Shown here piece after piece: positions 1,203 through 61,729 of a stretch of 64,000 bases of DNA. The first letter of the stretch is position 1. Each line of letters begins with the position of its first letter. The stretch lies in the IMG/VR virus record IMGVR_UViG_3300020421_002402, positions 46,194-110,193 of that record, one strand, 5' to 3'. A program made the translations under genes and the position numbers. The DNA comes from a virus. The notes below the pieces were generated by a model. It saw only the letters and a program-made list of their open reading frames with translations, had not been told where the DNA came from and did no database searches.

Positions 1203-1231
1203 TTGACATATCACCTTAATGTTAGTATAAT
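1203..1231 (+). promoter_or_regulatory. Consensus sigma70-type promoter
   Basis: TTGACA (1203-1208), 17 nt, TATAAT (1226-1231): perfect consensus, upstream of the wall hydrolase gene, which also has a GGAGAGG ribosome site. Confidence 0.85.
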
Positions 1232-1262
1232 ATATGTATATTTTAAATAAGGAGAGGGGAGT

Positions 1263-1808
1263 ATGGAAACATTATACGCAGTATTAACATCCATGATGTT
1301 AAGTTATGCACCCTACAATGCTACAGACGTTCTTATTGATAGAGACGAAGCATTTTGTTTAGCACAAAATGTTTACCACGAAGCCAAAGGTGAAAACCTA
1401 GCAGGTAAATCAGCAGTTGCTCATGTAACTCTAAACAGAGTTGCACATGAAAAATATCCTAACACTATATGTGGTGTTACAAAACAAGCAAAGTATAGAA
1501 CCAATTGGAGAGGAAATGAAACACCTATCATAGGTATGTGTCAATTCAGTTGGTACTGTGATGGCAAATCTGACGACATACAAATTGTTTATAGAAAAAG
1601 TTATCCAGGAAAACCTATTGGTCCTAATATGGAAGCCTGGAAACAAAGTGTTCAAGTTTCTTTATTGGCAATGTATGGCACAACAATAGATCCAACAAGT
1701 GGTGCAACACATTATTATAATCATAATATCAGTCAGCCAACTTGGGGTCAGGTATATCCAGTTGTTGCAGTTCTAAGCAATCATACTTTCTTAGTTAGGA
1801 ACGATTAA
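1263..1808 (+). CDS. SleB/CwlJ-type cell wall hydrolase
   Basis: A 181-residue protein whose core (from about residue 33) matches the Hydrolase_2 (SleB) family: AQNVYHEAKGE with the candidate catalytic Glu, the ICGVTKQAKY segment, the hallmark CQFSWYCDG, and the GATHYYN motif near the C-terminus. Members cleave peptidoglycan glycan strands. The N-terminal 20 residues (start of MLSYAPYN) are mildly hydrophobic and might act as an uncleaved export or anchor signal. It likely serves as endolysin or as a virion-associated wall hydrolase; with the holin candidate at 52.2 kb and spanin candidates at 56 kb it could form the lysis set (inference). It is read from its own consensus promoter, as a single gene. 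Confidence 0.8.
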   Translation: METLYAVLTSMMLSYAPYNATDVLIDRDEAFCLAQNVYHEAKGENLAGKSAVAHVTLNRVAHEKYPNTICGVTKQAKYRTNWRGNETPIIGMCQFSWYCDGKSDDIQIVYRKSYPGKPIGPNMEAWKQSVQVSLLAMYGTTIDPTSGATHYYNHNISQPTWGQVYPVVAVLSNHTFLVRND

Positions 1809-3239: not shown

Positions 3240-3247
3240 GATAAATA
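3240..3247 (+). promoter_or_regulatory. Late-type motif with leaderless spacing
   Basis: GATAAATA, 5 nt, then ATG at 3253. If transcription starts 5-6 nt after the octamer, as at T4 late promoters, the mRNA begins at the start codon. Confidence 0.6.
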
Positions 3248-3252
3248 TTGGT

Positions 3253-4668
3253 ATGCTATTCGGTATATTCACATTAATAACAGCCTTAGCCATTGCCGGA
3301 GTTGCGGCATGGTTTTCCATTGAAGGACTAATGGCAATTTTCAGTGCCTCAGCACTTCCTATTGCAATAATGGCTGGAACACTTGAAGTTGGTAAGTTAC
3401 TTACTGCAAGTTGGCTGTATAGATATTGGCATGAAACTTCATTGCTATTAAAAACATACTTGTCCATAGCCGTGGTTGTTTTGATGTTAATCACAAGTAT
3501 GGGTATCTTTGGATATCTATCTAAAGCACACTTGGACCAAGCAGGTGAAACAGGTGATGCTTTTGCAACAGTAGAAAGAATAGATGGACAAATACAAAGA
3601 GAAGAAAACAAAATTGCACTACTCGAAGATAGAATATTAGGAGTAGGTGGTAGTATAGATGTTTCCGAAAGTATTAAACAACAAGAAGAAATAAGAGATG
3701 GTGCTTGGGCAAGAGTTCAAGGTGATATAGATTATGCAAATGGTCAAATAGATAGATTAAGAGACCAACTAGCAGTATTAGACAAAGCAGTAAATGACCT
3801 TAGAGAGAAAGGTGTTGAAGTTGTAACACTAGATGAAGGTGGTGCTTTTAGACAAGCAGAAACTGAAAAGATTGATTATGTAGCACAGGCAAATGAATTA
3901 TTTGCACAACAAAAAGAACAACGAGACGAAATTAGAGCAGATATACAAGTTCAACAAGACAACATTGACAAGTATAGAGCACAGGCACAGAAAACAATTG
4001 ATGATGCCAATGCTGAAATTAATAAATTAAGAAATCAAAACAGCAGTCAACAAGATGAAAACATCATAAAGATAGATGAATACAATACACAAATTGATAG
4101 TATATTTGATAATATTGTAATATTAAAAGATGAAAAGTTTGAAGCAGAAAGTATTGTACGAAACTTAGAAAAAGAAGTAGGTCCTATTAAGTATGTTGCA
4201 CAATTAATATATGGCGACGATACAGAAAGTTATTTGGATCAAGCAGTAAGACTGTTTATTTTAATGCTAGTGTTTGTATTCGATCCACTAGCAGTTGTAT
4301 TAATCATAGCCGCTAACCAAACATTATTACGTTATGGCATTAACTTGGAAAAAACAGGACCTGATTTAAGAGACCAATTAAAAGACGATAGTCCTCCAGA
4401 TTTACCAAGACAACCTAGTCCACCAAGTGCGGTTGATGATGCGGCAGATGTTATGTCAGGTTATAAACAACCTGCACCTATAATTGTAGAAAAAGAAGTT
4501 ATCAAAGAAGTACCAGTAGAAGTCATTAAGGAAGTAGAAAAAGAAGTTGTTGTTGAAAAAGAAGTTGAAGCAGAAATAGATTTGAGTACACCTCCTGCTA
4601 TTAAAGAATTGGAAAAACGACTAGCAAAGAAACTGAAAAAAGATGGCAAAAAAGAAGATAACAGTTAA
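3253..4668 (+). CDS. Membrane protein with long periplasmic or cytoplasmic coiled coil
   Basis: 471 residues. Three hydrophobic segments at about 1-24, 28-50 and 70-95, a long charged coiled coil (about 115-310) rich in Q/E/K/D, a fourth membrane segment around 335-360 (FILMLVFVFDPLAVVLII), and a tail ending in P/V/E/K repeats (VEVIKEVEKEVVVEKEVE). The same repeat opens the next gene, which overlaps by 26 nt, so the two products probably act together. Function is not known; the architecture suggests a membrane-anchored scaffold. No ribosome site is visible: a late-type octamer sits 5 nt before the ATG. Confidence 0.75.
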   Translation: MLFGIFTLITALAIAGVAAWFSIEGLMAIFSASALPIAIMAGTLEVGKLLTASWLYRYWHETSLLLKTYLSIAVVVLMLITSMGIFGYLSKAHLDQAGETGDAFATVERIDGQIQREENKIALLEDRILGVGGSIDVSESIKQQEEIRDGAWARVQGDIDYANGQIDRLRDQLAVLDKAVNDLREKGVEVVTLDEGGAFRQAETEKIDYVAQANELFAQQKEQRDEIRADIQVQQDNIDKYRAQAQKTIDDANAEINKLRNQNSSQQDENIIKIDEYNTQIDSIFDNIVILKDEKFEAESIVRNLEKEVGPIKYVAQLIYGDDTESYLDQAVRLFILMLVFVFDPLAVVLIIAANQTLLRYGINLEKTGPDLRDQLKDDSPPDLPRQPSPPSAVDDAADVMSGYKQPAPIIVEKEVIKEVPVEVIKEVEKEVVVEKEVEAEIDLSTPPAIKELEKRLAKKLKKDGKKEDNS

Positions 4669-5425: not shown

Positions 5426-6693
5426 TGCCCGGTGATAAAGAACACGAACAAAATCTAAGTTGTAGTTTTTGTGGAAAAAAGCGAACTGAAGTAAAAAAGT
5501 TAATCGCTGGACCTAATTCATACATTTGTAATGAATGTATCAATATTAGTCACAAAATTATTAATGAAGAAGATTCATTAGAAGATTTAACCTTCGAAGA
5601 TATACCAACACCAGAAGAAATCAAAGCACACCTTGATGACTATGTTATTAGTCAAGAATATGCAAAAGAAATTTTGTCAGTCTGTGCATACAATCATTAC
5701 AAAACAATTTACAACGACAGTGATACTCATATAGAAAAAAGTAACATTGTTATATTAGGTAATACAGGAACAGGTAAAACACTTTTAGCAAAAACATTAG
5801 CAGAAAAATTAAGTGTACCTTTTGCAATAGCAGATGCAACAACATTAACTGAAGCAGGATATGTTGGCGAAGATGTTGAAAGCATGTTAGAGAGATTACT
5901 TAATATGTGTGATTGGAATTTAGAATTAGCACAAAAAGGTATAGTGTTTATAGATGAGATAGATAAAAAGGCTCGTAAGGGCGAGTCTAACACCGGCACA
6001 AAGGATATAAGTGGGCAAGGTGTACAACAAGCACTTTTAAGACTAATAGAAGGTACAGTAGTTAAAGTATCTTCAAATGGTTCAAAACGTATGGATCAAT
6101 ACGTTGAATTTGATACTACTAATGTACTTTTTATATGTAGTGGTGCATTTGTGGGATTAGAAAAACAAGTAAACACAAAAGCAAACAAAAAGAATATTGG
6201 ATTCAACAAACAATTAAAAACACCAGCAAAGAAAAATACATGGCAACACAAAGTAGAGCATGACGATTTAATCACGTATGGTCTTATCCCTGAACTGGTT
6301 GGTAGATTACCAAACATAGTTCCTTTAGAACCTTTAACACAATCTGATATGAAAACAATTTTGAAATCATCAAAAGCAAGTGTATTACCACAAGTTAAAA
6401 AACTTATGGAGTTCGATGATATACAACTAGAATTTAATGATGAGTATATAGATGACATTGCCAAAATGGCTAGTAAAACAAAAACTGGTGCTAGGGGATT
6501 GAAATCTATAGTAGAAAACAGTTTACATAATATAATGTTTAGGGCACCTAAACTAAAAGAAAATGGAGTTAAAACCGTACGTTTCAACAAATACCCTACA
6601 AAAGATGTTGACACTTACCCTGTTTTCATATATACTAACGGTAATGAAAAATCAGATAATGATTATAAAATAAAAATTAGAGGTAAAAGTTGA
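5425..6693 (+). CDS. clpX: ClpX, AAA+ unfoldase of ClpXP
   Basis: 422 residues with full ClpX architecture: zinc-binding domain (C13, C16, C35, C38), AAA+ module with Walker A GNTGTGKT (112-119), GYVGEDVES pore-1 region, Walker B VFIDEID (174-180), the ClpP-docking IGF loop (258-260), arginine-finger segment LVGRLPNIVPL, and sensor 2 GARGLKS. It unfolds tagged proteins and feeds them to ClpP in the cytoplasm. All key motifs are intact, including the IGF loop, so it should dock on host ClpP or on the phage ClpP at 40.6 kb. Overlaps the upstream gene (ATG within TAATG) and the downstream bS21 gene. Confidence 0.95.
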   Translation: MPGDKEHEQNLSCSFCGKKRTEVKKLIAGPNSYICNECINISHKIINEEDSLEDLTFEDIPTPEEIKAHLDDYVISQEYAKEILSVCAYNHYKTIYNDSDTHIEKSNIVILGNTGTGKTLLAKTLAEKLSVPFAIADATTLTEAGYVGEDVESMLERLLNMCDWNLELAQKGIVFIDEIDKKARKGESNTGTKDISGQGVQQALLRLIEGTVVKVSSNGSKRMDQYVEFDTTNVLFICSGAFVGLEKQVNTKANKKNIGFNKQLKTPAKKNTWQHKVEHDDLITYGLIPELVGRLPNIVPLEPLTQSDMKTILKSSKASVLPQVKKLMEFDDIQLEFNDEYIDDIAKMASKTKTGARGLKSIVENSLHNIMFRAPKLKENGVKTVRFNKYPTKDVDTYPVFIYTNGNEKSDNDYKIKIRGKS

Positions 6694-7118
6694 ACAACAA
6701 ATCACAAGGCAGACAACAAAGTCGAAAAATGACTCAGGGTTGGAATTCTCAAAAGAGAAAAGAGCAACCTAAAAAACCACAACACTATTTAGATAAATTT
6801 AGTGGGACCGTAGAAGTACGAAACAACGACGTAAATAAGGCATTGAGAGTTTTGAAAAAGAGATTGGAAAAAGCAGAATTTCAGAAAGAATTGGCGAAGC
6901 AACAATATTACGAAAAGCCTAGTGCAAAAAGAAATCGTAAAAAGAAGCAAGCCAAGAAGAGATGGGACAAGTATGTTAGAGAAGCCGAAGCAAGAGGTGA
7001 TTTTAAACAATACATGCCCACTGGTTCAAAATGGATGAAGTCCAAACGTAAAACAAGGCGAGTAAGAGAATACAACGAAAGGATAGCCGCCATGCAGAGA
7101 AGTCGTGGTAACTTCTAA
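6690..7118 (+). CDS. rpsU: Ribosomal protein bS21
   Basis: 142 residues. Residues about 45-95 match bS21: VEVRNNDVNKALRVLKKRLEK, then LAKQQYYEKPSAKRNRKKKQAKKR. bS21 binds the 30S platform beside the 3' end of 16S rRNA and influences start-site choice. This copy is about twice the usual length, with basic extensions on both sides. The TTG start overlaps the clpX stop (TTGA) and is preceded by AGAGG; no ATG gives the full domain. Encoding bS21 is known for some aquatic phages; the long extensions are less usual. Confidence 0.85.
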   Translation: MNNKSQGRQQSRKMTQGWNSQKRKEQPKKPQHYLDKFSGTVEVRNNDVNKALRVLKKRLEKAEFQKELAKQQYYEKPSAKRNRKKKQAKKRWDKYVREAEARGDFKQYMPTGSKWMKSKRKTRRVREYNERIAAMQRSRGNF

Positions 7119-14197: not shown

Positions 14198-14226
14198 TTG
14201 ACAATACACACATAAGGTAGTATAAT
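14198..14226 (+). promoter_or_regulatory. Internal promoter before sufC, leaderless spacing
   Basis: TTGACA (14198-14203), 17 nt, TATAAT (14221-14226), 6 nt, ATG at 14233. The expected transcription start is the A of the start codon; no ribosome site is present. Confidence 0.82.
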
Positions 14227-14232
14227 AACGGC

Positions 14233-14928
14233 ATGTTAAAATTAAAGAATTTTTCTGTAGAACATATACTTGAAGATATCACAACGACATTTGATTTAGG
14301 CAAGACTTATGTTGTAATGGGAAGTAATGGTGTAGGTAAAAGTACACTATTGCATGGCATTATGGGAAGACCTGACCTTAATGTATCTGGTGAAATAACT
14401 TTTTTGGGTAGTGACCTAACAGAGTTAGAGACAGATGAAAAAGCAAGGTTAGGAATGTTTGTTGGATTCCAAGCACCAACAAGTGTACCTGGTTTAAGTA
14501 ATTTTCAATTTATGAAACAAGCATTAAACATATCAGGTAAAGATATTGCAGAGACATTAAGAAATTTTAAAGACATAAGTGGTAAACTTAACTTGCCTGA
14601 TAATTGGGACAAAAGAAACCTTAACACAGATGCTAGTGGTGGTGAGAAAAAGAAAAATGAACTTATTCAAATGAGTATGCTTAACACCAAACTGGCAATG
14701 CTTGATGAACCAGACAGTGGATTAGACGTTGATGGTATCAAAGCATTAATAGAACAACTTAACGAATGGCGTAATAATGATAACACTTTAATTGTTGTTA
14801 CACACTATCAAAAATTAGTTGAAGGCTTGAACCCAGACAAAGTATTAGTCTTGAAAAAAGACGGAGTTCTATCAGGCGGTATTGAACTTGCAGATAAAAT
14901 ATTTAGTCAAGGGTTTGAAAGTGTATAA
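14233..14928 (+). CDS. sufC: SufC, Fe-S assembly ATPase
   Basis: 231 residues, ABC-type ATPase: Walker A GSNGVGKST (about 32-40), GFQAPTSVPGLSNFQF (the Q-loop region typical of SufC), signature ASGGEKKK, Walker B LAMLDEPDSGLDVD, and H-loop VVTHYQ. Powers the SufBC2D scaffold. No ribosome site: the start codon sits 6 nt after a TATAAT box, so its own transcript would be leaderless. Overlaps the sufD start. Confidence 0.95.
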   Translation: MLKLKNFSVEHILEDITTTFDLGKTYVVMGSNGVGKSTLLHGIMGRPDLNVSGEITFLGSDLTELETDEKARLGMFVGFQAPTSVPGLSNFQFMKQALNISGKDIAETLRNFKDISGKLNLPDNWDKRNLNTDASGGEKKKNELIQMSMLNTKLAMLDEPDSGLDVDGIKALIEQLNEWRNNDNTLIVVTHYQKLVEGLNPDKVLVLKKDGVLSGGIELADKIFSQGFESV

Positions 14929-16198
14929 AAATTTATTCTATAGAGAAACATTAGAACCAACAAAATCTTATGATAGTTTCTACACTATACAAGACTTGTA
15001 TGATTTTGTTACAGGCGAAAATACAAAAACCAAAGACTATCATCATTTAAAACACAAACTAAATAATTTTTACACAGGTTATAACAACAATGTAGATTAT
15101 ATTACAGGCACCGGTTTACCCAATCCAAAGTCTGAACAGTTTAACTTTGCAAACTTGCATAAATTTTATAACAAAGAAATACTGTGGTCAAGTTCTCCAG
15201 CAGAAAAACAATACCTAGCAGACTTAGAACCTTTTGAAACAGTAGCATTCAAAAAGAATACATTATTGTTTAATGATGGTATGGTTTTTCCTAGCAACGA
15301 TTTAGGAATAAAGAAACCTTTTCAATTACAAATTTTAGACCAAATAAAAGTAAACAGAAACAAACAAGATGAATATGTAAAGTTAATTAGAAACACAGAA
15401 AACTTTTCTAACTTTACATACGCATTCTCGCCTTTTTTGAATACAATAATTATACCTTCTGGTGCTAATGGATCATTTATGAAAAATCCAATTAGTATTA
15501 ATTATGTGAACAAAAATTCTAAAGGCATATTAGAATGCAATACAAATATTATAGATGTACAACACAAAACAAAAGTTCATTTAAAAGAGAATGTAAAATT
15601 ACAATCTGGACAAATGAATAACATAATTTATGTTGTGAGAGAAAACAGTGAACTAGTCATAGATAGAGTTACAAATGATTTTGGTGGCTTCGGTATATTT
15701 GATAGCAAATTTATTTGCCACCCCAACAGTAAAATTACTATTAATTTTAAAAATACAGGATCCGACTATTATCAAGAAAACTTTTATTTTGATATGACTA
15801 CAAATGTAGACTTAACACTAAATGGCAGGAATAACATTTACAAAGGACATGAATATCATCAATACGTTCATGTAGACAGTAGAAGTTCAGACAACAAAAG
15901 TACTATAGATATAAAAAATGTTGGAAATGAAAAAGTCAATACAAGTTTTATAGGAAGGTTTGATGTTAGTCCTAATAGTGTGGGTTTTGATGGTCACATG
16001 AAAAATGAAAATTTAATGTTGACTCCAAATACAAAAATGCACTCCAGACCCATACTAGATATACATACCAAAGAAATTGAGTGTACTCATGGTTGTACCA
16101 TAAGTAATATAGATAAAAGCAAATTATATTATTTGCAGAGCCGAGGCCTTCCAAAAGACATAGCCGAGGACGTATTAGTAAGTAGTTTTTTATGTTAA
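14921..16198 (+). CDS. sufD: SufD, Fe-S scaffold subunit
   Basis: About 425 residues from GTG at 14921, which overlaps the sufC stop (GTGTATAA) and has CAAGGG upstream; TTG at 14915 or 14882 is also possible. The C-terminal half has the SufB/D beta-helix and the family's end: HSRPILDIHTKEIECTHGCT then SKLYYLQSRGLPKDIAED. The N-terminal half is divergent and Lys/Asn-rich. Partner of SufB in the SufBC2D complex. Confidence 0.88.
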   Translation: MYKNLFYRETLEPTKSYDSFYTIQDLYDFVTGENTKTKDYHHLKHKLNNFYTGYNNNVDYITGTGLPNPKSEQFNFANLHKFYNKEILWSSSPAEKQYLADLEPFETVAFKKNTLLFNDGMVFPSNDLGIKKPFQLQILDQIKVNRNKQDEYVKLIRNTENFSNFTYAFSPFLNTIIIPSGANGSFMKNPISINYVNKNSKGILECNTNIIDVQHKTKVHLKENVKLQSGQMNNIIYVVRENSELVIDRVTNDFGGFGIFDSKFICHPNSKITINFKNTGSDYYQENFYFDMTTNVDLTLNGRNNIYKGHEYHQYVHVDSRSSDNKSTIDIKNVGNEKVNTSFIGRFDVSPNSVGFDGHMKNENLMLTPNTKMHSRPILDIHTKEIECTHGCTISNIDKSKLYYLQSRGLPKDIAEDVLVSSFLC

Positions 16199-17406
16199 AA
16201 GTTTATAAAAAAGCAAAAGATATCAAACAGATTAGGAATTGTTTTCCTAGTTTAGCATATAGCGAATTGACATACTTGGACAATGCCGCAAGTAGTCAAA
16301 CTGTTGATAGTTCAATCAAAGCGGTAAGTGATTATCACTACAATTACAGAGCAAATGTTCATAGGGGAGACTTTAAGACTAGTACTATTGCAAGTGACAA
16401 GTATGACGAAGCAAGAGTAGAAGTTGCAAAACTTATTAATGCTGAACCACATGAGATTGCTTTTACAAATGGTACAACTGCAAGTTTAAACATAATTGCA
16501 GATTGGACTCCATTAGAGCCAGCAGTAATTATGACTGAGGTAGAGCATCACAGTAACATTTTACCTTGGATGCAACAAGGTAGAACAAAAGCAAACGGTC
16601 AATTAGTTATAGTACCAGGCAATGATGAAGGTAATGTAGATGTTAATGCTTGGTATGAAACAATAAAAGATAATCCAGGAAGTGTTTGCAGTTTCTTAAC
16701 ACAAAGTAATTTTACAGGACAAGAACTTCCTTGGCAACAAATGATAATGATTGCAAAGGAACATGACTGTGAAGTTGTAATAGATGCATGCCAAAGCATA
16801 GGACATAAACCGATAGATGTTAAAAAGAATGATATAGATTGGATGGCATTTAGTGGTCACAAGATGTATGCAAGTACAGGTACAGGAGTATTGTATCACA
16901 AAGGTGGATTTGATGATGTTCAAACATGGTTAGGTGGAGGAACAATTACACAATGTGATTTTGATACATTCACTATGAAAAGAGGACCTGAAAGAATGGA
17001 AGCCGGTACACCAAATGTTGCAGGTGTTCACAGTTTAGGTGCGGCGGCAAAATGGATACAAGATATCACATACAATGAAATACATGAATGTGAAACAGAA
17101 TTTTTTAATATGTTAAAAGACAAAGGTCTATTTGACATAGAACAAATGGAACTTATTGGACCTACTAAACCAAATAGTGTTTATAGTTTCAAAGTAAAAG
17201 GTACAAGTCCAAGTGACTTGGCAGGATTTTTAGACATGCAAAATGTTTGTGTGAGGACGGGCCATATGTGTGCCTATCCGGCAAGTTATAGATATACAAA
17301 TAGTGATGGGATTTTACGAGTTAGTTCAGCACCATATAATGATGAACATGATTGCGTAAAATTAGTTGAGGGATTATGGCAGGCGATAGAAAAGATGAAA
17401 CTGTAG
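16192..17406 (+). CDS. sufS: SufS cysteine desulfurase
   Basis: 404 residues, fold-type I PLP enzyme of group II. PLP lysine K224 in SGHKMYA, catalytic cysteine C360 in RTGHMCAYP, LDNAASSQ near the start, FTNGTTASLN and EHHSNILPW for cofactor binding. Mobilises sulfur from cysteine as a persulfide, normally handed to SufE, which this phage also encodes (40.26 kb). All catalytic residues are intact. Overlaps sufD by 7 nt. Confidence 0.96.
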   Translation: MLKVYKKAKDIKQIRNCFPSLAYSELTYLDNAASSQTVDSSIKAVSDYHYNYRANVHRGDFKTSTIASDKYDEARVEVAKLINAEPHEIAFTNGTTASLNIIADWTPLEPAVIMTEVEHHSNILPWMQQGRTKANGQLVIVPGNDEGNVDVNAWYETIKDNPGSVCSFLTQSNFTGQELPWQQMIMIAKEHDCEVVIDACQSIGHKPIDVKKNDIDWMAFSGHKMYASTGTGVLYHKGGFDDVQTWLGGGTITQCDFDTFTMKRGPERMEAGTPNVAGVHSLGAAAKWIQDITYNEIHECETEFFNMLKDKGLFDIEQMELIGPTKPNSVYSFKVKGTSPSDLAGFLDMQNVCVRTGHMCAYPASYRYTNSDGILRVSSAPYNDEHDCVKLVEGLWQAIEKMKL

Positions 17407-18138: not shown

Positions 18139-18166
18139 TTGACTTTACTCCAAAAAGACGTATAAT
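18139..18166 (+). promoter_or_regulatory. Sigma70-type promoter
   Basis: TTGACT (18139-18144), 16 nt, TATAAT (18161-18166), followed by a leader with AAGGAG before the gene at 18199. Confidence 0.8.
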
Positions 18167-18198
18167 AGTATATGTAGGTTAAGGAAAAGGAGTAATTA

Positions 18199-18720
18199 AT
18201 GTATAAAGTATTTCAAATTAAAATCAACAGCGAAGTCCATAACTTTGTGAATAGCAATGACAGAGGACACACTGGTGCTGAAGAAAAGTATCCAATTTAC
18301 GAAACATATATGAGATTGACTCATAGTTTCCGTGATGCTATTAAATTCAAAGATACTGACTTTCAACATTTTACCCATGTTGCTTCTGTAAAGAAGGACG
18401 CAGGTCTTGTTGATAGTTCCGGTGATAGTTGGCAGGTACGTGATTTGGAAGATGTGTTTGCTGTTTTAAACGGTAGATACTATGACGAGGATACTGAAAA
18501 AGATCCTGTGTTCGATGTTCATGTAAGCGATTACAAAATGAAAACTGTTACTCGCAAAGACGGTGAAGTAGTAACTTTCCGTGACATGCACTCTTTGAGT
18601 GTTGGTGATATTGTTCAAGACGTTGACAACGGTACATTCCATATTGTTGCTAGTTTTGGATTTGAAGATGTTACTGACCAAATAAAAAATTATGTTGAAC
18701 AATCACTAGAGGTGGCTTAA
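18199..18720 (+). CDS. Conserved protein of unknown function
   Basis: 173 residues, acidic. A recognisable C-terminal stretch (FRDMHSLSVGDIVQDVDNGTFHIV) resembles the MRSLSVGD-type motif seen in many phage early proteins; function unknown. Good AAGGAG site 8 nt upstream of the ATG. Starts a run of small genes and ends with a TAATG overlap. Confidence 0.7.
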   Translation: MYKVFQIKINSEVHNFVNSNDRGHTGAEEKYPIYETYMRLTHSFRDAIKFKDTDFQHFTHVASVKKDAGLVDSSGDSWQVRDLEDVFAVLNGRYYDEDTEKDPVFDVHVSDYKMKTVTRKDGEVVTFRDMHSLSVGDIVQDVDNGTFHIVASFGFEDVTDQIKNYVEQSLEVA

Positions 18721-18973: not shown

Positions 18974-19002
18974 AATGCCCGGCACATGTCGGGCATTTTT
19001 TT
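18974..19002 (+). terminator. Strong terminator
   Basis: AATGCCCG-8 nt-CGGGCATT followed by a run of Ts. Confidence 0.9.
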
Positions 19003-19003
19003 C

Positions 19004-19032
19004 TTGACATTTGCCACTTAATCCGGTAAAAT
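19004..19032 (+). promoter_or_regulatory. Sigma70-type promoter, near-leaderless spacing
   Basis: TTGACA (19004-19009), 17 nt, TAAAAT (19027-19032), then 7 nt to ATG at 19040. No ribosome site. Confidence 0.72.
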
Positions 19033-19039
19033 ACTAATT

Positions 19040-19483
19040 ATGACAATGCATTTAGCACAAGGTCTAACGACCATAAGAAATAAAAAGTACAAGCCTAAAA
19101 TGACTAAGGCTAACATTGCCAAGTGGGAAGAAGGTTTGAGAAAGAAAAACAAAGAACACAAAAGGCTAGGTTTGCCCAAGTGGACTTTTGAACAGTATGT
19201 TGATTACTGTCACGGTATATCGCCTAAAATAGATCCTAGGCGAAAAGAAGCATTCAAATCTGCTGTTCCTAATCATTTTCAAAATGAACGGTATAAGGAA
19301 ATGCAAGAACATGCCAAGAAGTATCCTAGTATGCCTTTGACAAGTAGAGGCGGTACTGCTGAAGATATTGAGTGGCAAAAAGAAAAAGCAGAAATATGTA
19401 AGAATTACACTATTGCTCCTGCTTACAACAAAGGTGCTTATCAAGTAATTGGTAAGAACAACATTAAAGATATAGGAAAATGA
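19040..19483 (+). CDS. Basic protein of unknown function
   Basis: 147 residues, rich in K/N/Y, with WTFEQYVDYCHG and YKEMQEHAKKYPS. Likely nucleic-acid- or protein-binding; no family recognised. First gene of a long run of overlapping small genes (19.0-21.0 kb). Confidence 0.65.
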   Translation: MTMHLAQGLTTIRNKKYKPKMTKANIAKWEEGLRKKNKEHKRLGLPKWTFEQYVDYCHGISPKIDPRRKEAFKSAVPNHFQNERYKEMQEHAKKYPSMPLTSRGGTAEDIEWQKEKAEICKNYTIAPAYNKGAYQVIGKNNIKDIGK

Positions 19484-25544: not shown

Positions 25545-25552
25545 CATAAATA
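25545..25552 (+). promoter_or_regulatory. Late-type motif with leaderless spacing before fabF
   Basis: CATAAATA, 5 nt, ATG at 25558; no ribosome site. Confidence 0.6.
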
Positions 25553-25557
25553 TCTGT

Positions 25558-26772
25558 ATGAAACTCGCTATCACTGGAGTGGGTATTGTCTCGCCTTTAG
25601 GCAATAGTCTCTCTGAAAACATACAAAATTTAAAGGCTTTACAAGTTCCTATTCAGGATTATAGACCACAAGGTCATTTTAGTGATTGGATTTTAAATGT
25701 TGAAAAAGCATTTCACACTAATTATGAAGATGTGGATTTAGAAGGTTTAATTGAACCTAAAAATAAACGTTGGTTAGATCCTACTGTTGTTACAAGCATG
25801 ATTGCTGTAAATGAAGCAGTAGAAATGAGCGGCTTAGATTTTCCTGATGATACACCAGTTTTTGTAGGCACCATAAGAGGTGGTGCACCAAACTTAGCAA
25901 GGTATGGACAAATACTGCATCAAAATAAACGTAAAGTACACCCCCAAATTTTATTAAGTAGTTCACATGAATACGTCAGTAATCATGTTAGCAGTCATTA
26001 CAAATGGCATGGTGCTAGTATGGGTACAAGTGGTACATGTATTAGTGGAGTACAAGCATTAGACCTTGCCAAAAAGTATATGATGACAGAAGGTTATACT
26101 TGTGCTGTTGTAGGTGCAACAGACTTTATGACTAGTTCAATGAGTACTATATACTTTCAACTATTAGGTGCAATTAGTCCAACAGGTAGAAGTGTACCTT
26201 GGGACGAAAGTAGAGATGGTTTTGTAATGGGCGAAGGTACAGTTTATCTGGTAGTTGAGCCTTTAGAACTTGCTAGGGAGAGAGGAGCAAATATCAGATG
26301 GGTAGTAGATGGTATCGGGATAGCGAACGATGGTGCCCATGCTACCCAACCTGATTTGGAAGGCACTGGTGCCAGGATTGCTATTGATAAAGCATTATCA
26401 CAAGCAGGCACCAGTGCTGTAGATTATACTGTATTGAATGCTCATGCTACTAGTACACCATTTGGTGACCCTGTAGAGTATAACGTGTTGAAAGATTACT
26501 TTCCAGAGGGAAGTCACTTGTATGGAAACAAAAGTCAAGTGGGCCATTTAATGGGTGCTAGTGGATTAGCAGAAGTAGTGTTAGGTGCAGAAGCAATGAA
26601 GCAAGGATTTGTTCCTGCAAATGCAAATTTAGTGAAACCATTTACAGAAGATGGTTATTTTAATTTATTGTCTCAAATAGAAGAAAAAGAATACACAAGG
26701 CTGTTTAAAACTAGTTTTGGATTTGGTGGTAGAAGTGCCGCAGTGAGTGTAGTAGATGAAAGAGAAGTTTAA
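25558..26772 (+). CDS. fabF: Beta-ketoacyl-ACP synthase II-like (FabF family)
   Basis: 404 residues, thiolase fold with the full catalytic set: C161 in GTCISG, H296 in NAHATSTPFGD, K325 and H330 in NKSQVGHLMGASG, plus the SFGFGGRSAA end. Condenses malonyl-ACP with acyl-ACP. The phage also encodes an acyl carrier protein (57.4 kb). No ketoreductase, dehydratase or malonyl transferase of clear FabG/FabZ/FabD type is visible, so it probably redirects the host pathway. The sequence around the active Cys (TCISG, not ACATG) is divergent, which may mean altered substrate. No ribosome site; leaderless spacing. Confidence 0.9.
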   Translation: MKLAITGVGIVSPLGNSLSENIQNLKALQVPIQDYRPQGHFSDWILNVEKAFHTNYEDVDLEGLIEPKNKRWLDPTVVTSMIAVNEAVEMSGLDFPDDTPVFVGTIRGGAPNLARYGQILHQNKRKVHPQILLSSSHEYVSNHVSSHYKWHGASMGTSGTCISGVQALDLAKKYMMTEGYTCAVVGATDFMTSSMSTIYFQLLGAISPTGRSVPWDESRDGFVMGEGTVYLVVEPLELARERGANIRWVVDGIGIANDGAHATQPDLEGTGARIAIDKALSQAGTSAVDYTVLNAHATSTPFGDPVEYNVLKDYFPEGSHLYGNKSQVGHLMGASGLAEVVLGAEAMKQGFVPANANLVKPFTEDGYFNLLSQIEEKEYTRLFKTSFGFGGRSAAVSVVDEREV

Positions 26773-28753: not shown

Positions 28754-28782
28754 TTGACATTAGTATCAAAATACCGTATAAT
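28754..28782 (+). promoter_or_regulatory. Consensus promoter, leaderless spacing
   Basis: TTGACA (28754-28759), 17 nt, TATAAT (28777-28782), 6 nt, ATG at 28789. Confidence 0.85.
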
Positions 28783-28788
28783 GTATAA

Positions 28789-29028
28789 ATGAGCAAAAAG
28801 TCTAAGACACAAATGACTAAAGCAGAACTAATTGACCTTGCATACACATTAGAAAACAAGGTTAAAGAGTTAGAAGAACAAATAGAAACAATGCAAAACG
28901 ATAGGATTGCATTGGATACTATTATTGCTGACCAAGACACTAGTATGATTATTAGTGGAATGAATGCACGAATCAAAATGCTTGAGGACAAAATCTTAGA
29001 CGTAGAAAGTAGGAAAAATTATGAATAA
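28789..29028 (+). CDS. Small coiled-coil protein
   Basis: 79 residues, nearly all one helix with heptads (LENKVKELEEQIETMQ). No ribosome site; starts 6 nt after a -10 box. Function unknown. ATGAATAA overlap with the next gene. Confidence 0.7.
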   Translation: MSKKSKTQMTKAELIDLAYTLENKVKELEEQIETMQNDRIALDTIIADQDTSMIISGMNARIKMLEDKILDVESRKNYE

Positions 29029-34091: not shown

Positions 34092-34111
34092 GCCTTAAAA
34101 CTTATAAACTT

Positions 34112-34142
34112 AAGAAAGGTACCAAACGGTACCTTTCTTTTT
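34112..34142 (+). terminator. Very strong terminator
   Basis: AAGAAAGGTACC-aaac-GGTACCTTTCTT, a perfect 12-bp stem, followed by Ts. Confidence 0.92.
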
Positions 34143-34152
34143 GAGTGAATTA

Positions 34153-34160
34153 AGTAAATA
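34153..34160 (+). promoter_or_regulatory. Late-type motif near start codon
   Basis: AGTAAATA, 6 nt, ATG at 34167; one base longer than the other leaderless late arrangements. Confidence 0.45.
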
Positions 34161-34166
34161 GTAATT

Positions 34167-35012
34167 ATGAAATATGTTATTACAGGACATACAAGAGGCA
34201 TAGGCAAAAAATGTGCAGACTTATTTACTGCTGATGGACATGAAGTAATTGGTTTCAGTCGTGAAAATGGTTACGATATCAGAGATCCTGAACAAAGAAA
34301 ACAAATATTGGAACAATCGGTAGATGCAGACGTTTTTATAAACAATGCCGCTGGATATTTTTTAGCAAAAAGAAGTGAAGTTCCAGAAAAACAAAGAGAA
34401 GATTACAATGCTGTTTGGGACGATGAAGGATATTTCCCACAAACTAGAATGTTTATGGAAATATGGAAACAGTTTTATAATCAAAAGAAAACAATAGTAA
34501 ATGTTAATAGTGCTATAAAATATAGTTCAGTAAATGCTTCAGCAAAAATCATAGTCACAGAACCACGTGAGATTCCTTTTCTTGTAACAGATGAAACTGT
34601 TTGGTCAGATATGCCTGCCATTGAAGCAAATCAAATTTATTTTAAAAGCAAAGAGCAACTCTTTGCCGTAGCATCAAATCTTGTAGGATTTGGCAACGCC
34701 GGTGGTGCTAAGAAGATAAGCAAAACTCAATTCGTTATAGATGCAAACGACAAAGAACACGAAATGGCAAACCTTATGTGTAGGTGTATAAATATTAATC
34801 CAGGTTGGGTAGATACTGAAATGTTTCCTCATTTTGCAAATGGCAGGAAACTACAACCAGAAGATATTGCAGAATTGATTAAATGGTCAATCAATATGCC
34901 TAAGAATATAGAAGTATTTGATTTAAGTGTGCGTAAAAAATTAAGCAATAAAGAGATAGGTTTAAGTTCAAAGGGTAAAGATTTTACCAGTATTCCGCCA
35001 ATTAAGGCTTAG
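34167..35012 (+). CDS. Short-chain dehydrogenase/reductase-like, copy 2
   Basis: 281 residues. TGHTRGIGKKCADLF and HEVIGFS match the opening of the SDR at 27256, so the two are paralogues. FINNAAGYF, VNVNSAIKYS, YFKSKEQLF (Y-x-x-x-K) and NINPGWVDTEMF complete the fold. It has a long middle insertion (about 130-200) and a basic tail. Substrate unknown. Confidence 0.82.
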   Translation: MKYVITGHTRGIGKKCADLFTADGHEVIGFSRENGYDIRDPEQRKQILEQSVDADVFINNAAGYFLAKRSEVPEKQREDYNAVWDDEGYFPQTRMFMEIWKQFYNQKKTIVNVNSAIKYSSVNASAKIIVTEPREIPFLVTDETVWSDMPAIEANQIYFKSKEQLFAVASNLVGFGNAGGAKKISKTQFVIDANDKEHEMANLMCRCININPGWVDTEMFPHFANGRKLQPEDIAELIKWSINMPKNIEVFDLSVRKKLSNKEIGLSSKGKDFTSIPPIKA

Positions 35013-37227: not shown

Positions 37228-37256
37228 TTGACAACTATACTGTATTTGTGTATAAT
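37228..37256 (+). promoter_or_regulatory. Consensus promoter, leaderless spacing
   Basis: TTGACA (37228-37233), 17 nt, TATAAT (37251-37256), 6 nt, ATG at 37263. Confidence 0.85.
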
Positions 37257-37262
37257 ATACCT

Positions 37263-37454
37263 ATGAAACATCTAATTAAGTGGATGAAAATATCTGCATT
37301 TATTAATTTTTACCTATGTGTAATTATGACTTTAGTATTGATTGCATTAATGGTAGATATTGGATTAGACAGTTATTGGCATGGTAATGATTTTAAAACA
37401 AAACTACTTAATGAAGTAGAACAAATTGAATGCACGACAACAGGAAATTGCTAG
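37263..37454 (+). CDS. Small membrane protein
   Basis: 63 residues from the ATG at 37263, which sits 6 nt after the -10 box; an earlier in-frame ATG at 37224 lies inside the terminator/promoter and would be untranscribed. One helix (FINFYLCVIMTLVLIALMV). Confidence 0.7.
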   Translation: MKHLIKWMKISAFINFYLCVIMTLVLIALMVDIGLDSYWHGNDFKTKLLNEVEQIECTTTGNC

Positions 37455-40223: not shown

Positions 40224-40252
40224 TTGACATTTGCTTAAAAAGGCAATATAAT
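40224..40252 (+). promoter_or_regulatory. Consensus promoter of sufE, near-leaderless
   Basis: TTGACA (40224-40229), 17 nt, TATAAT (40247-40252). The first ATG (40254) lies too near the -10 box; the next (40260) is 8 nt after it. Confidence 0.8.
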
Positions 40253-40259
40253 TATGACA

Positions 40260-40607
40260 ATGGAAATAGATTACTTAAACGAATTATCCCCAGAAGATTT
40301 TTACGAGACTGTTATGGACTTAGCAGACCGTGAACACGTTAGGGAAATACAAGAGGACGAACATAAAGTGTACGGTTGTACAAGTAATGTTTGGGTTGTA
40401 TTAGAAGATGATAATTTAATATTTGATAGCAGTAGTGCATTTGTAAAAGGATTGCTTACTGTTATTTGTTCACAGTTAAACACCATAGAAGATATCAGAA
40501 ATGTGACCTTAGAACAGTATCCATTTTTAAATACTAATATAATATCTTATCAACGATTAAAAGGTGTTACAAGTTTCCTAAACCGAGTAAAGCAATTAGC
40601 AAATTAA
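40260..40607 (+). CDS. sufE: SufE sulfur acceptor
   Basis: 115 residues from ATG 40260 (an ATG at 40254 lies upstream of the expected transcription start). LSPEDFYETVMDLA opens the fold; KVYGCTSNVWVV carries C40, the sulfur-accepting cysteine; FVKGLLTVI and SFLNRVKQLA close it. SufE takes the persulfide from SufS and stimulates it. Encoded 23 kb away from sufS and on its own promoter. Together with the operon at 12.7-17.7 kb it gives the phage both halves of the sulfur relay. Confidence 0.88.
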   Translation: MEIDYLNELSPEDFYETVMDLADREHVREIQEDEHKVYGCTSNVWVVLEDDNLIFDSSSAFVKGLLTVICSQLNTIEDIRNVTLEQYPFLNTNIISYQRLKGVTSFLNRVKQLAN

Positions 40608-43756: not shown

Positions 43757-43785
43757 TTGACAAATACATATAAATCCCTTATAAT
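43757..43785 (+). promoter_or_regulatory. Consensus promoter, leaderless spacing
   Basis: TTGACA (43757-43762), 17 nt, TATAAT (43780-43785), 6 nt, ATG at 43792. Confidence 0.85.
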
Positions 43786-43791
43786 GCAAAG

Positions 43792-44277
43792 ATGTTAGAT
43801 AAACTTAATAGATATCAAAGTGATGAAAACACAGGCTTAGAAATGCTCTACAAGGGTAAGAGCCTACATTCTACTGAGTTTACTACAACAGAAGACATAG
43901 ACAAGTTTAATAACTTTTGTAATGAATTTGATATAAATGTGCTAAAAAAATTAGGTGATAGTGACTTCGACCGTATAAATACATATAACATTCCAGAACA
44001 CTATCAAACAATAGATGTAAAGGAATATGTTAGAAAGTTAGTAACGCAAGGTGAAAACCTAGCAAGAGTAGAAATGGAACTAACGGAATTCGAAGCCAGG
44101 AATTTGTTTCCTGTACTTAGGATACTAATATATATTATAGAGACCATGCGTAAGCATGAACTTGTTTGGGGTGTTGGAAGAGGTAGTAGTGTAGCCAGTT
44201 ATGTATTATACTTACTTGGTGTACACAAAGTAAATAGTCTAAAGTATAATTTAGACATAAAAGAATTCTTAAAGTAG
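43792..44277 (+). CDS. DnaE-like fragment protein
   Basis: 161 residues. The C-terminal block WGVGRGSSVASYVLYLLGVHKVNSLKYNL closely matches the GPGRGSAAGSLVAYLLGI ... DPLKYNL segment of bacterial DNA polymerase III alpha, which binds DNA/incoming nucleotide. The rest of the polymerase (PHP, catalytic aspartates, beta-binding) is absent, so this is a stand-alone module, not a working polymerase. No ribosome site; leaderless spacing. Function unknown. Confidence 0.7.
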   Translation: MLDKLNRYQSDENTGLEMLYKGKSLHSTEFTTTEDIDKFNNFCNEFDINVLKKLGDSDFDRINTYNIPEHYQTIDVKEYVRKLVTQGENLARVEMELTEFEARNLFPVLRILIYIIETMRKHELVWGVGRGSSVASYVLYLLGVHKVNSLKYNLDIKEFLK

Positions 44278-45248: not shown

Positions 45249-46312
45249 GCGTAACTAATTGTAATAACAGCAGTACCTGTCGTACTACTATCAGCATTAA
45301 AATAAGCCAATATATCAGTATCAGCGGCATTAGTATATGTGAAGTTAGGTTGTACTTCGTATATTGCAATATCTTTTAAATCTATATAATCGTTTGACAA
45401 CAACCTATCATTATCACCTGCATCACCAACTGTAAGTGTTGGAGCACTACCATCAAATGCAGTAGTAACATCAACAGTAACAGATTGTACTTTTTTGTTT
45501 TGACTTATATTACCAATTACAACACTAGCACCAGTTGTATGTACAATAGTTGTTGTAAGTGTACCAGCATCAGTAACGGCACTATCGGCTGTACCAATTA
45601 ATGTAAGATGACTTGTTTGACTTGGGTCTGCTTGATTGGAAACATATAATCTATATTCACCATCACCACCATCGTCAACTTTAACAAAGTCACCTGCTTC
45701 AACAGTAGTTGCGGCAAATAAGGCAGTTAGGTTTGCAAAAGTGTGATACACCATATTACTACCAGTTGATGTAACACCTGTATTACCAACATAAACTGCA
45801 CCAGCAACAAATATAACATTACTTGTGCCTGTGCCTATTGCACTTGGTAAGTTACTTCCTATGAAGTTTAGTATGCCTGATTGATAATCAAAGTACCATT
45901 CGTCATTACTACCTGAACCTGTTTCAAACAGTTGTGTACCATTTGTTTGTGGATTGTTTGTACCACTAGCCGCGGCATATACTTTTAATTGATATGTTGA
46001 ACCAAATGTTGGTGGTATCCAATTAGTTGTACTTGTTTTCCAAGTTCTATTATCACTTGCTGATCCATCTTCAGTTGTTTCTAAAGCACCACTTACACTA
46101 TCAAGATACACATTAGCAATACTGCTATTAGCACTTGGTATGGTTGCTGGAATACTTGCTGACTGATTCCAAATGTCTGAGTCTTTAATAATAAAGTTAC
46201 TTGCATTTGGTTCGTTAGGTGCTTTTTTATTTGCATTGGTATCTGTCTTAGTTTTACCAAAACCAATCTTCTTCCAAAGTAAATCAATTTTTTGACTATC
46301 TGATATTGCCAT
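45245..46312 (-). CDS. Virion structural protein (fibre-associated type)
   Basis: 355 residues. SQKIDLLWKKIGFGKTKTDTNANKKAPNE at the start is a signature I associate with structural proteins of T4-like marine phages; the rest is a T/S/N/G-rich beta protein. TAATG overlap with the upstream 875-residue gene on the same strand, so both are read together. Likely tail-fibre or baseplate-associated. Confidence 0.75.
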   Translation of the reverse strand: MAISDSQKIDLLWKKIGFGKTKTDTNANKKAPNEPNASNFIIKDSDIWNQSASIPATIPSANSSIANVYLDSVSGALETTEDGSASDNRTWKTSTTNWIPPTFGSTYQLKVYAAASGTNNPQTNGTQLFETGSGSNDEWYFDYQSGILNFIGSNLPSAIGTGTSNVIFVAGAVYVGNTGVTSTGSNMVYHTFANLTALFAATTVEAGDFVKVDDGGDGEYRLYVSNQADPSQTSHLTLIGTADSAVTDAGTLTTTIVHTTGASVVIGNISQNKKVQSVTVDVTTAFDGSAPTLTVGDAGDNDRLLSNDYIDLKDIAIYEVQPNFTYTNAADTDILAYFNADSSTTGTAVITISYA

Positions 46313-49276: not shown

Positions 49277-50200
49277 ATGAAAGATTTGTGGGTAGAAAAA
49301 TATCGTCCTAGTAGCATAGACACTTATGTTTTTAGAGATGATAATCAGCACAGGCAAGTTGCAGGTTGGTTAGGAGACGGAGCACTACCACATTTGCTGT
49401 TTAGCGGAGCACCAGGTACTGGTAAAACAACACTTGCAAAAGTGTTATTGAAAGAACTTGATGTAGACAGCATGGATATACTAGAAATAAACGCAAGTAA
49501 TGAAAATAGTGTCGAAACGATTCGAAGTAAAATTACTAACTTCAGTGGCACTATGCCGTTTGGTGACATGAAGTATGTGTTACTCGATGAGGCTGATTAT
49601 ATTACCCCTAATGGGCAGGCGGCTCTACGTGGTGTTATGGAAATGTATCACACGTCCTGTCGCTTCATACTAACTTGCAACTACCCACAAAGAATTATTC
49701 CTGCATTACATAGTAGGTGCCAAGGATTTCATATTGAAAAACTAGACATAAATGAGTTTACGGCTCGTATTGCAACAATTTGTATTGAAGAAGGTGTTGA
49801 AGTAGATTTAGAAACACTAGACACTTATGTACAAGCAACATATCCTGACTTGCGTAAAGCAATTAATCTTACACAACAGAACGTAGTAGATAATGTATTG
49901 CAAAAGCCACAAGATGGCGATAGCAATACAAGTGATTGGATGTTAAATGCAATAGAGTTGTTCAAAGCAGGTAAGTATAAAGAAGCAAGAACAATGATTG
50001 TCAGTCAAGCAAGACCTGAAGAGTATGAAGAAGTTTACAAGTTTATGTATCGTAACTTAGAACTATGGGGCGACACAGAACTAAAACAGGATCAAGCAAT
50101 CGTTATAATCAGAAATGGTATTGCAAAAAGTATTGCAGTAGCAGATCCTGAGATTAACTTGGCGGCAACTTTAGTAGAACTAGAGATGAACTCTGTATAA
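49277..50200 (+). CDS. 44: Sliding clamp loader ATPase subunit (T4 gp44 type)
   Basis: 307 residues. LWVEKYRPSSIDTYV opening, Walker A GAPGTGKTTLAK, ASNENSVETIRSKI, VLLDEADYITPNGQAALRG (Walker B and sensor region), TCNYPQRIIPALHSRC (arginine finger). Loads the sliding clamp for DNA polymerase. No gp62 homologue is recognisable next to it. Overlaps the next gene by one base. Confidence 0.93.
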   Translation: MKDLWVEKYRPSSIDTYVFRDDNQHRQVAGWLGDGALPHLLFSGAPGTGKTTLAKVLLKELDVDSMDILEINASNENSVETIRSKITNFSGTMPFGDMKYVLLDEADYITPNGQAALRGVMEMYHTSCRFILTCNYPQRIIPALHSRCQGFHIEKLDINEFTARIATICIEEGVEVDLETLDTYVQATYPDLRKAINLTQQNVVDNVLQKPQDGDSNTSDWMLNAIELFKAGKYKEARTMIVSQARPEEYEEVYKFMYRNLELWGDTELKQDQAIVIIRNGIAKSIAVADPEINLAATLVELEMNSV

Positions 50201-57595: not shown

Positions 57596-57623
57596 TTGAC
57601 TTTCCTTATTATTAGTGTATAAT
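57596..57623 (+). promoter_or_regulatory. Sigma70-type promoter, leaderless spacing, dnaJ
   Basis: TTGACT (57596-57601), 16 nt, TATAAT (57618-57623), 6 nt, ATG at 57630. Confidence 0.85.
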
Positions 57624-57629
57624 TAAGTC

Positions 57630-58436
57630 ATGGATCATTATCAAACATTAGGTGTATCACCACAAGCAGACGAAAAGGAAATTAAGAAAGCCTATCGTAG
57701 ACTTGCGGGTAAACATCATCCAGATAAAGGCGGAGATGAAAATGAATTTAAGAAAATACAAAAAGCATACGAAACTCTTAGCAATCCTGAAAAACGCCAG
57801 CAATACGATAATCCAAACCCATTCGAAGGCGGCGACCCATTTAGTCAAGGTGGCTTCAACTTTAGGGGAGACTTTGGAGATGTATTCCAAGACATATTTG
57901 GGAGAGGATTCCAACAAAGACAGCCAACGAGGAACCCAGACGGAGTAGTTGATTTACATTTAGAACTGCATGAAGTATATCATGGCACAGAAAAAATGAT
58001 AAACACAGGCTACGGCACATTTAAAATAACAATACCTGCAGGAACTAGACATGGCACTAAATTTAATATGCATGGTAAAGGACCTGTGGAACATCAAGGA
58101 CTGCCACCTGGAGACCTTATAGTTAGATGCTTTGTACACAGTCCACCTGAATGGGATAGACGTAATGACGATTTATATATCAGAGTACAAGTAGATTACT
58201 TAGAAGCAATAGCAGGTACTGAAGTTAGAATCACTCAGTTAGATAATAGACAGTTAGATATAAAGATTCCTAAATTAACAAACCCAGGATCACAACTCAA
58301 ATTGCAAGGTAAAGGTATGCCTAATCCACAGAATGGTAGGGTAGGAAATCTCATAGTAGTAGTGGAAGTTGTTAGTCCAAACTTAACAGATGAACAGATT
58401 TCAAGAATACAAGATATTAAAAACAACAAAGAGTAA
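57630..58436 (+). CDS. dnaJ: DnaJ/CbpA-type co-chaperone
   Basis: 268 residues: J domain with HHPDKGGD (HPD at about 34-36), G/F region (GGDPFSQGGFNFRGDFGD), then C-terminal domains I and II (VDLHLELHEVYHG ... RCFVHSPPEWDRRNDDL). No zinc finger, so CbpA-like. Stimulates DnaK. Leaderless spacing; next gene (clpA) is also chaperone machinery. Confidence 0.93.
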   Translation: MDHYQTLGVSPQADEKEIKKAYRRLAGKHHPDKGGDENEFKKIQKAYETLSNPEKRQQYDNPNPFEGGDPFSQGGFNFRGDFGDVFQDIFGRGFQQRQPTRNPDGVVDLHLELHEVYHGTEKMINTGYGTFKITIPAGTRHGTKFNMHGKGPVEHQGLPPGDLIVRCFVHSPPEWDRRNDDLYIRVQVDYLEAIAGTEVRITQLDNRQLDIKIPKLTNPGSQLKLQGKGMPNPQNGRVGNLIVVVEVVSPNLTDEQISRIQDIKNNKE

Positions 58437-61315: not shown

Positions 61316-61729
61316 ATGAGCATCAATCGAAAATCAATTTTAATGCAGAGTTCAACAGGCTCTACTATGTCTTTGACTACAAATAATGTAGAAGGAGATA
61401 GTTATTATGGATACTCAGATGGTATTCACACCATAGCAGTATCATACAATTCATTTAAAGGTAGAGTAAGTGTACAAGGAACTTTAGCATTAACACCCAC
61501 AGACGCAGACTTCTTTGATATACAAATACCAGGTGGATTAACTGCCGCAGGCGGTGGATATAAACAGTTTCCAACCACAGGGACTTCAGGATTTACTGGA
61601 GTAGAAGCATATACTATCACAGGCAACTTTACATACTTAAGAATTAAGATAGATAGAAGTCATTTAGGCGATGGTACTACATACGATTCTGCGTATGGTT
61701 CTATAAACTACATTAGATTATCAGCATAA
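61316..61729 (+). CDS. Small beta-rich virion protein
   Basis: 137 residues, T/G/Y-rich beta protein with GDSYYGYSDGIHTIAVS and FPTTGTSGFTGVEAYT. Directly before the fibre gene and on a late-type motif; probable fibre or capsid accessory protein. Confidence 0.65.
   Translation: MSINRKSILMQSSTGSTMSLTTNNVEGDSYYGYSDGIHTIAVSYNSFKGRVSVQGTLALTPTDADFFDIQIPGGLTAAGGGYKQFPTTGTSGFTGVEAYTITGNFTYLRIKIDRSHLGDGTTYDSAYGSINYIRLSA

Follow-up and report, generated by a model that had tools for sequence, protein, structure and literature searches.

How is a phage gene expressed when its promoter ends six nucleotides before its start codon? The question is raised by a 64,000-nt stretch of viral DNA (hereafter, the window), the right-hand 64 kb (positions 46,194 to 110,193) of the 110,193-base IMG/VR virus record IMGVR_UViG_3300020421_002402. 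The rest of the record was analyzed too; its 146 genes were called with a simple codon model, and pooled promoter statistics were drawn from this record and nine relatives (10 records). Shine-Dalgarno (SD) sites were scored at -16..-5; a wider range, -20..-3, reads the promoter spacer as a false SD.

Promoters that abut start codons

A sequence-only reading of the window had listed seven TTGACA-N16/17-TATAAT promoters directly before genes without an SD, and all seven are found at the positions that it gave. The ATG follows the -10 box after six nucleotides (N6) at 14233, 28789, 37263, 43792, and 57630 and after seven (N7) at 19040 and 40260; the boxes are as described, except that the dnaJ -35 element is TTGACT (spacer 16 nt) and the -10 element before 19040 is TAAAAT. 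Also in line with that reading, no SD lies inside the predicted transcripts of these genes, and about half of the remaining called genes carry one. The sites, with two leadered promoters for contrast, are as follows.

14198..14235, +, sufC promoter, TTGACA-N17-TATAAT-N6-ATG (TTGACA 14198, TATAAT 14221, ATG 14233)
14233..14928, +, sufC (ABC ATPase), predicted leaderless; Pfam PF00005; tblastn alignment with homologues from residue 1
14882..17406, +, sufB/D-like gene and sufS, downstream of sufC; PF01458, PF00266
19004..19042, +, TTGACA-N17-TAAAAT-N7-ATG, promoter of an unknown 147-aa gene (ATG 19040)
28754..28791, +, TTGACA-N17-TATAAT-N6-ATG, promoter of an unknown 79-aa gene (ATG 28789)
37228..37265, +, TTGACA-N17-TATAAT-N6-ATG, promoter of an unknown 63-aa ORF (ATG 37263)
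40224..40262, +, sufE promoter, TTGACA-N17-TATAAT-N7-ATG (PF02657; ATG 40260)
43757..43794, +, TTGACA-N17-TATAAT-N6-ATG, promoter of a DNA Pol III alpha-like gene (PF07733, phrog_11127)
57596..57632, +, dnaJ promoter, TTGACT-N16-TATAAT-N6-ATG (PF00226, PF01556; ATG 57630)
18139..18201, +, contrast, leadered: TTGACT-N16-TATAAT-N32-ATG with SD AAGGAG
1203..1265, +, contrast, leadered: TTGACA-N17-TATAAT-N31-ATG with SD, before an endolysin-like gene

The record has one more N6 site shortly before the window begins (record position 45737, gene 45749). The genes sufC, sufB/D-like, and sufS share a strand and have overlapping ends, and probably form one operon. A second in-frame sufE ATG is present at 40254, only N1 after the -10 box; relatives favor the start equivalent to 40260.

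Two modes of placement

TTGACA and TATAAT boxes with the 16-18 nt spacing of σ70-type promoters occur well above chance: perfect TTGACA-N15-19-TATAAT matches number 14 on the forward strand and 0 on the reverse, against 0.05 expected from order-3 Markov simulations, and the backwards-pattern control gives 0. Their position relative to start codons is also skewed. Among boxes matching at 11 or more of 12 positions, ATG occurs at N5-7 ten times (0.25 expected); at N6 after σ70 boxes it is seen 6 times against 0.45 per other position (p 8e-6), and 38 times against 4.8 in the nine relatives, which are not fully independent (p 1e-21). Simulations, the reverse strand, and conservation across divergent phages thus bear out the proposal that such regular spacing is unlikely to be chance.

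Across the 10 records, σ70 box-to-start distances fall into two classes, with 40 genes at N5-7 (34 of them at exactly N6), two at N8, none at N9-18, and 77 at N20-40. An SD is present in 1 of 40 close genes (2%) versus 59 of 77 distant ones (77%), but a low count is partly inevitable in close genes, where the promoter takes up the space that an SD would need; the gap at intermediate distances is therefore the stronger argument. The leadered promoters are informative in another way: nucleotides 6-8 after their -10 box read pyrimidine-A-T, with A preferred at the seventh, exactly where close-class genes have the A of their ATG. At both N6 and N5, ATG outnumbers every other triplet (36 and 47 cases), and neither GTG nor TTG ranks in the top 12. 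Promoter placement, the partly forced lack of an SD, and AUG rather than GUG/UUG starts are all as in leaderless genes. A-rich codons after AUG mark the σ70 class (0.53 vs 0.42, with orthologues that are not independent) and are not seen in the late class described below.

T4-type late promoters placed alike

The architecture of the sequence-only reading holds for the σ70 class, but a second class, with T4-type late boxes, had been missed. The string ATAAATA (often GATAAATA) is followed by ATG at exactly N5 in 10 of its 38 forward occurrences, and TATAAATA-like boxes are found near the start codons of late-type genes. Pooled over the 10 records, 60 late-class genes lie at N5-6 (45 at exactly N5), 3% of them with an SD, and 108 lie at N17-40, 80% with an SD. 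Three sites in the window are:

3240..3255, +, late-type GATAAATA-N5-ATG of a 471-aa gene (3253-4668); N5 kept in G010, G011, and G012
25546..25560, +, late-type ATAAATA-N5-ATG of a 404-aa gene (25558-26772); N5 kept in L066 and L067
61303..61318, +, late-type GATAAATA-N5-ATG of a virion structural protein gene (61316-61729); phrog_14467

At the last of these, GATAAATA-N5 is kept in six loci (L010, L011, L012, G010, G012, and L024, the last at 34% aa identity).

Where would transcription from such a box begin? In T4 the late box is placed exactly at -13 to -6. It is a TATA box of 8 bp, has no -35 element, and precedes the start by roughly one turn of the helix (PMC2988020), so N5 should put +1 at the AUG. 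A gp55-like late σ is encoded by relatives G004, G008, G009, and G012 and by phages Atu_ph07 and Phosso, and by 0 of 14 control genomes; none is detectable in the 110-kb record, which is itself a fragment. A clamp-loader homologue is present at 49277-50200.

Cultured phages share the late arrangement in part. HTVC008M has nine ATAAATA-N5-ATG sites, all nine at annotated CDS starts, and at most two at any other distance; its start annotation was made apart from our codon-model gene caller and is thus independent of our own start calls. The genes concerned include those for the tail tube cap, baseplate wedge, tape measure, and DNA end protector, and the nine starts are at HTVC008M record positions 6280, 7562, 19456, 31132, 49760, 75559, and 142360 and, on the minus strand, 16007 and 18916. 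Mosig has eight late N5 pattern matches against about one per other distance, and methylophage Melnitz four against about one. The σ70-type N5-7 class is absent from HTVC008M. The late N5 class is at or near background in T4, RaK2, Syn9, S-PM2, P-SSM4, and phiM12; in T4 no late box lies closer than N12 to a called start, and N5 is at background (2 vs 1.7). The nearest cultured relatives by DnaJ, Atu_ph07 (34.5% identity) and Phosso (29.9%), have neither σ70 N5-7 sites nor a late N4-6 excess beyond controls. Another candidate, LR756500, was discarded: its 56 ATAAATA-N4-6-ATG matches are nearly equaled by the backwards-pattern control (43).

Conservation among relatives

When upstream regions of relatives were anchored by tblastn of each protein, spacers and flanks proved to diverge in orthologues while the N5-7 distance between box and ATG stays. 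For sufC, N6 is found in all relatives above 60% identity (62-100% aa); L069 and L071 have lost the architecture, their sufC being promoterless and immediately adjacent to the gene before it. N5-6 persists at dnaJ in many relatives, even where aa identity is only about 33%, and sufE keeps N5-7 in five. N6 is retained before gene 28789 in G002, G010, G011, and L070 (57-72% aa identity) and before the Pol III-like gene in L051 and G010 and, with weaker -10 boxes, in G002, G011, and G012. Other sites are narrower in distribution: the architecture of ORF 37263 is kept in L051, the only relative found; gene 19040 has N6-7 in L060, L062, and L069 and lacks it in other relatives; and that of gene 45749 is confined to this record and absent in its relatives. 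The conserved N-termini of SufC and DnaJ align from residue 1, which fixes their start codons independently, and those of SufC, DnaJ, SufE, and the Pol III-like protein align from residues 1-3 across relatives.

The dnaJ upstream region varies in other ways. In L018 and L026-L034 an operator-like palindrome, AAGGTATAGTATAATTTACTATACCTTT, spans the -10 box, and the leader is short (about 14 nt) and SD-less. An apparent exchange of the σ70 box for (A/G)TAAGTA-N5-ATG in L015, L024, and L047 was set aside, as the sites are too few.

A probable mixed strategy of leaderless and SD-led genes

What do these placements mean for gene expression? The most probable reading, to which we assign a probability of about 0.88 on sequence evidence, is that, in a group of large T4-related phages, most of them marine, both host σ70-type and phage late promoters give rise to leaderless mRNAs, while other genes are SD-led. 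At the former promoters, the host's RNA polymerase and housekeeping σ would recognize TTGACA-N16/17-TATAAT and initiate at the seventh nucleotide after the -10 box, where the start codon has its A; polymerase with a phage gp55-like late σ would act later in infection, recognizing (G)ATAAATA and initiating some 6 nt downstream of the box, once more at the A of AUG. An mRNA beginning with 5'-AUG would be recognized by a ribosome with initiator tRNA and translated without an SD, and other genes would have an SD in a leader no shorter than about 14 nt or lie downstream in operons. Box positions and spacing, the two modes, their conservation, the lack of an SD, and the late σ genes of relatives are observed, and from them we infer the start sites, temporal classes, and ribosomal mechanism; use of TTGACA/TATAAT and leaderless translation by the host are assumed. 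As the sequence-only reading held, the spacing predicts that transcription starts at the A of AUG and that no SD is used. The accompanying claim of phage "reliance on leaderless mRNA" was overstated: about 20 of the 146 genes are predicted to be leaderless (8 σ70, 12 late), and leaderless use in this phage is a mixed strategy.

Could the start codons merely lie close to promoters for other reasons? With a GC content of 35%, the genome has many strings that resemble TATAAT or ATAAATA, and A+T-rich boxes might crowd before ATG by chance or composition; the probability of this is practically nil, the controls having refuted it already, with the reverse strand, simulations, and backwards patterns at or near zero, intermediate box-ATG distances empty, spacing kept in orthologues, and no such pattern in T4, which has equal GC content. 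Neither is it at all likely that the true starts lie downstream with their own SD, the promoter-proximal ATG being only part of a leader: long SD leaders are common in the same phages and the small ORF 37263 is thinly supported, but the promoter-proximal ATG sits at a fixed distance and the four sets of N-termini align from residues 1-3.

Two alternatives closer to the favored reading are improbable rather than negligible. The abutting boxes may be real promoters while the proteins come mainly from longer read-through transcripts, the leaderless form being minor. Sinorhizobium genes with both leaderless and leadered starts (PMC3616915) offer a precedent, and sufC in L069 and L071, promoterless and directly after the upstream gene, speaks for it as well; we nevertheless think it unlikely, given that close-class genes have no SD and that a strong terminator-like hairpin (18974-18997), across which little read-through is expected, stands directly before the predicted leaderless promoter of at least one of them, at 19004. 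Transcription might instead start 1-5 nt upstream of AUG, yielding a very short SD-less leader. Bacterial start-site choice wobbles by 1-2 nt, and a minority of genes sit at N7-8 (σ70) or N6 (late), both of which speak for such leaders; we rate them as quite unlikely given that an exact N6 accounts for 34 of 40 σ70 genes and an exact N5 for 45 of 60 late ones, and that leadered promoters prefer A at the seventh nucleotide.

If leaderless and SD-led genes are indeed expressed side by side, is their division regulatory? T4-superfamily phages of marine oligotrophic bacteria may run a deliberate dual translation program, in which precise promoter placement gives a constant group of early and late genes leaderless mRNAs. 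The expression of these genes would then depend not on SD strength but on the condition of the ribosome pool, meaning its levels of 70S, initiator tRNA, initiation factor, and bS21/bS1, and the phage's bS21 may help to adjust it. This proposal is speculative, and we doubt it more than we believe it.

Relation to known systems

Leaderless phage genes and -10-adjacent ORFs are already known (PMC9031893; PMC12340547). In the "-10 region adjacent to ORF" of Deinococcus-Thermus, a -10 hexamer at a strictly set distance of a few bp before the ORF drives a leaderless mRNA (PMC12340547); as in the phage, such promoters coexist with SD-led genes, but they belong to cellular genes, often lack a -35, and form one class, whereas the phage has full -35/-10 promoters plus a second, phage-specific late promoter placed alike. 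Alphaproteobacteria offer another parallel: in Sinorhizobium meliloti, 171 leaderless mRNAs have been mapped, all starting with AUG (PMC3616915). The start at the A of AUG (predicted in the phage), the exclusive use of AUG, and the mixture with leadered genes are shared; the S. meliloti examples are host genes with mapped 5' ends, and those of the phage are predictions from sequence. Recognition of a 5'-terminal AUG and the preference for AUG are established for lambda cI and bacterial leaderless mRNAs (PMC9031893; PMC3616915). Like the transcripts predicted here, cI mRNA is a phage mRNA that starts at AUG and is translated without an SD (PMC9031893), but cI is an isolated repressor gene, whereas here the arrangement recurs over many early-type and late-type genes in many phages.

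The T4 late system (gp55/gp33/gp45) also uses a late TATA box with no -35, and relatives of the window phage have a gp55-family σ; T4, however, places the box at least 12 nt before called starts, with room for a leader, while here a large subset lies at N5, with none. HTVC008M and Mosig are T4-like SAR11 phages of about 141-147 kb that share ATAAATA-N5-ATG. Atu_ph07 and Phosso, jumbo phages of Agrobacterium and Sinorhizobium, share dnaJ followed by clp, a gp55-like σ, and bS21. Systematic leaderless placement at both promoter classes in T4-related phages appears to be unreported in the open-access literature, to which the search was confined. Methods developed for cyanophages failed to predict the late promoters of pelagimyophages (PMC7029224), perhaps because these are fused to start codons.

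Leaderless translation would then be a measurable and recurrent part of the expression program of marine T4-related phages, which are widespread. A cultured test system with named genes is available in HTVC008M and its host, Candidatus Pelagibacter ubique HTCC1062. Gene callers that demand an SD or a leader may misplace such starts.

Other phage genes

A bS21-like domain (6807-6962, E 6e-16) is encoded within 6690-7118 and is common to most relatives, Atu_ph07, Phosso, and HTVC008M. The phage protein could affect the balance between SD-led and leaderless initiation; a strict link was rejected, since Atu_ph07 and Phosso have bS21 without the architecture. Peptide deformylase genes are present in L008 (14107-14658; record 34107-34658) and, between dnaJ and clp, in Phosso. 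Scans of the 64-kb window for tRNAs and Rfam families gave no match.

The window encodes a near-complete SUF iron-sulfur assembly set, comprising SufC, SufB/D-like, and SufS (14233-17406) and SufE (40254-40607), which is kept in relatives. Identity between SufS and any bacterial counterpart found is only about 36%. Used as a host marker, SufS gave no matches when bacterial genomes were first scanned; scanned by alignment, it was about 33-38% identical to sequences from many phyla, which is no host signal, so host assignment by this route was rejected. The Pol III-like gene (43792-44277) encodes a 161-aa stand-alone fragment related to the NTPase region of DNA polymerase III alpha; relatives keep both the gene and its predicted leaderless promoter.
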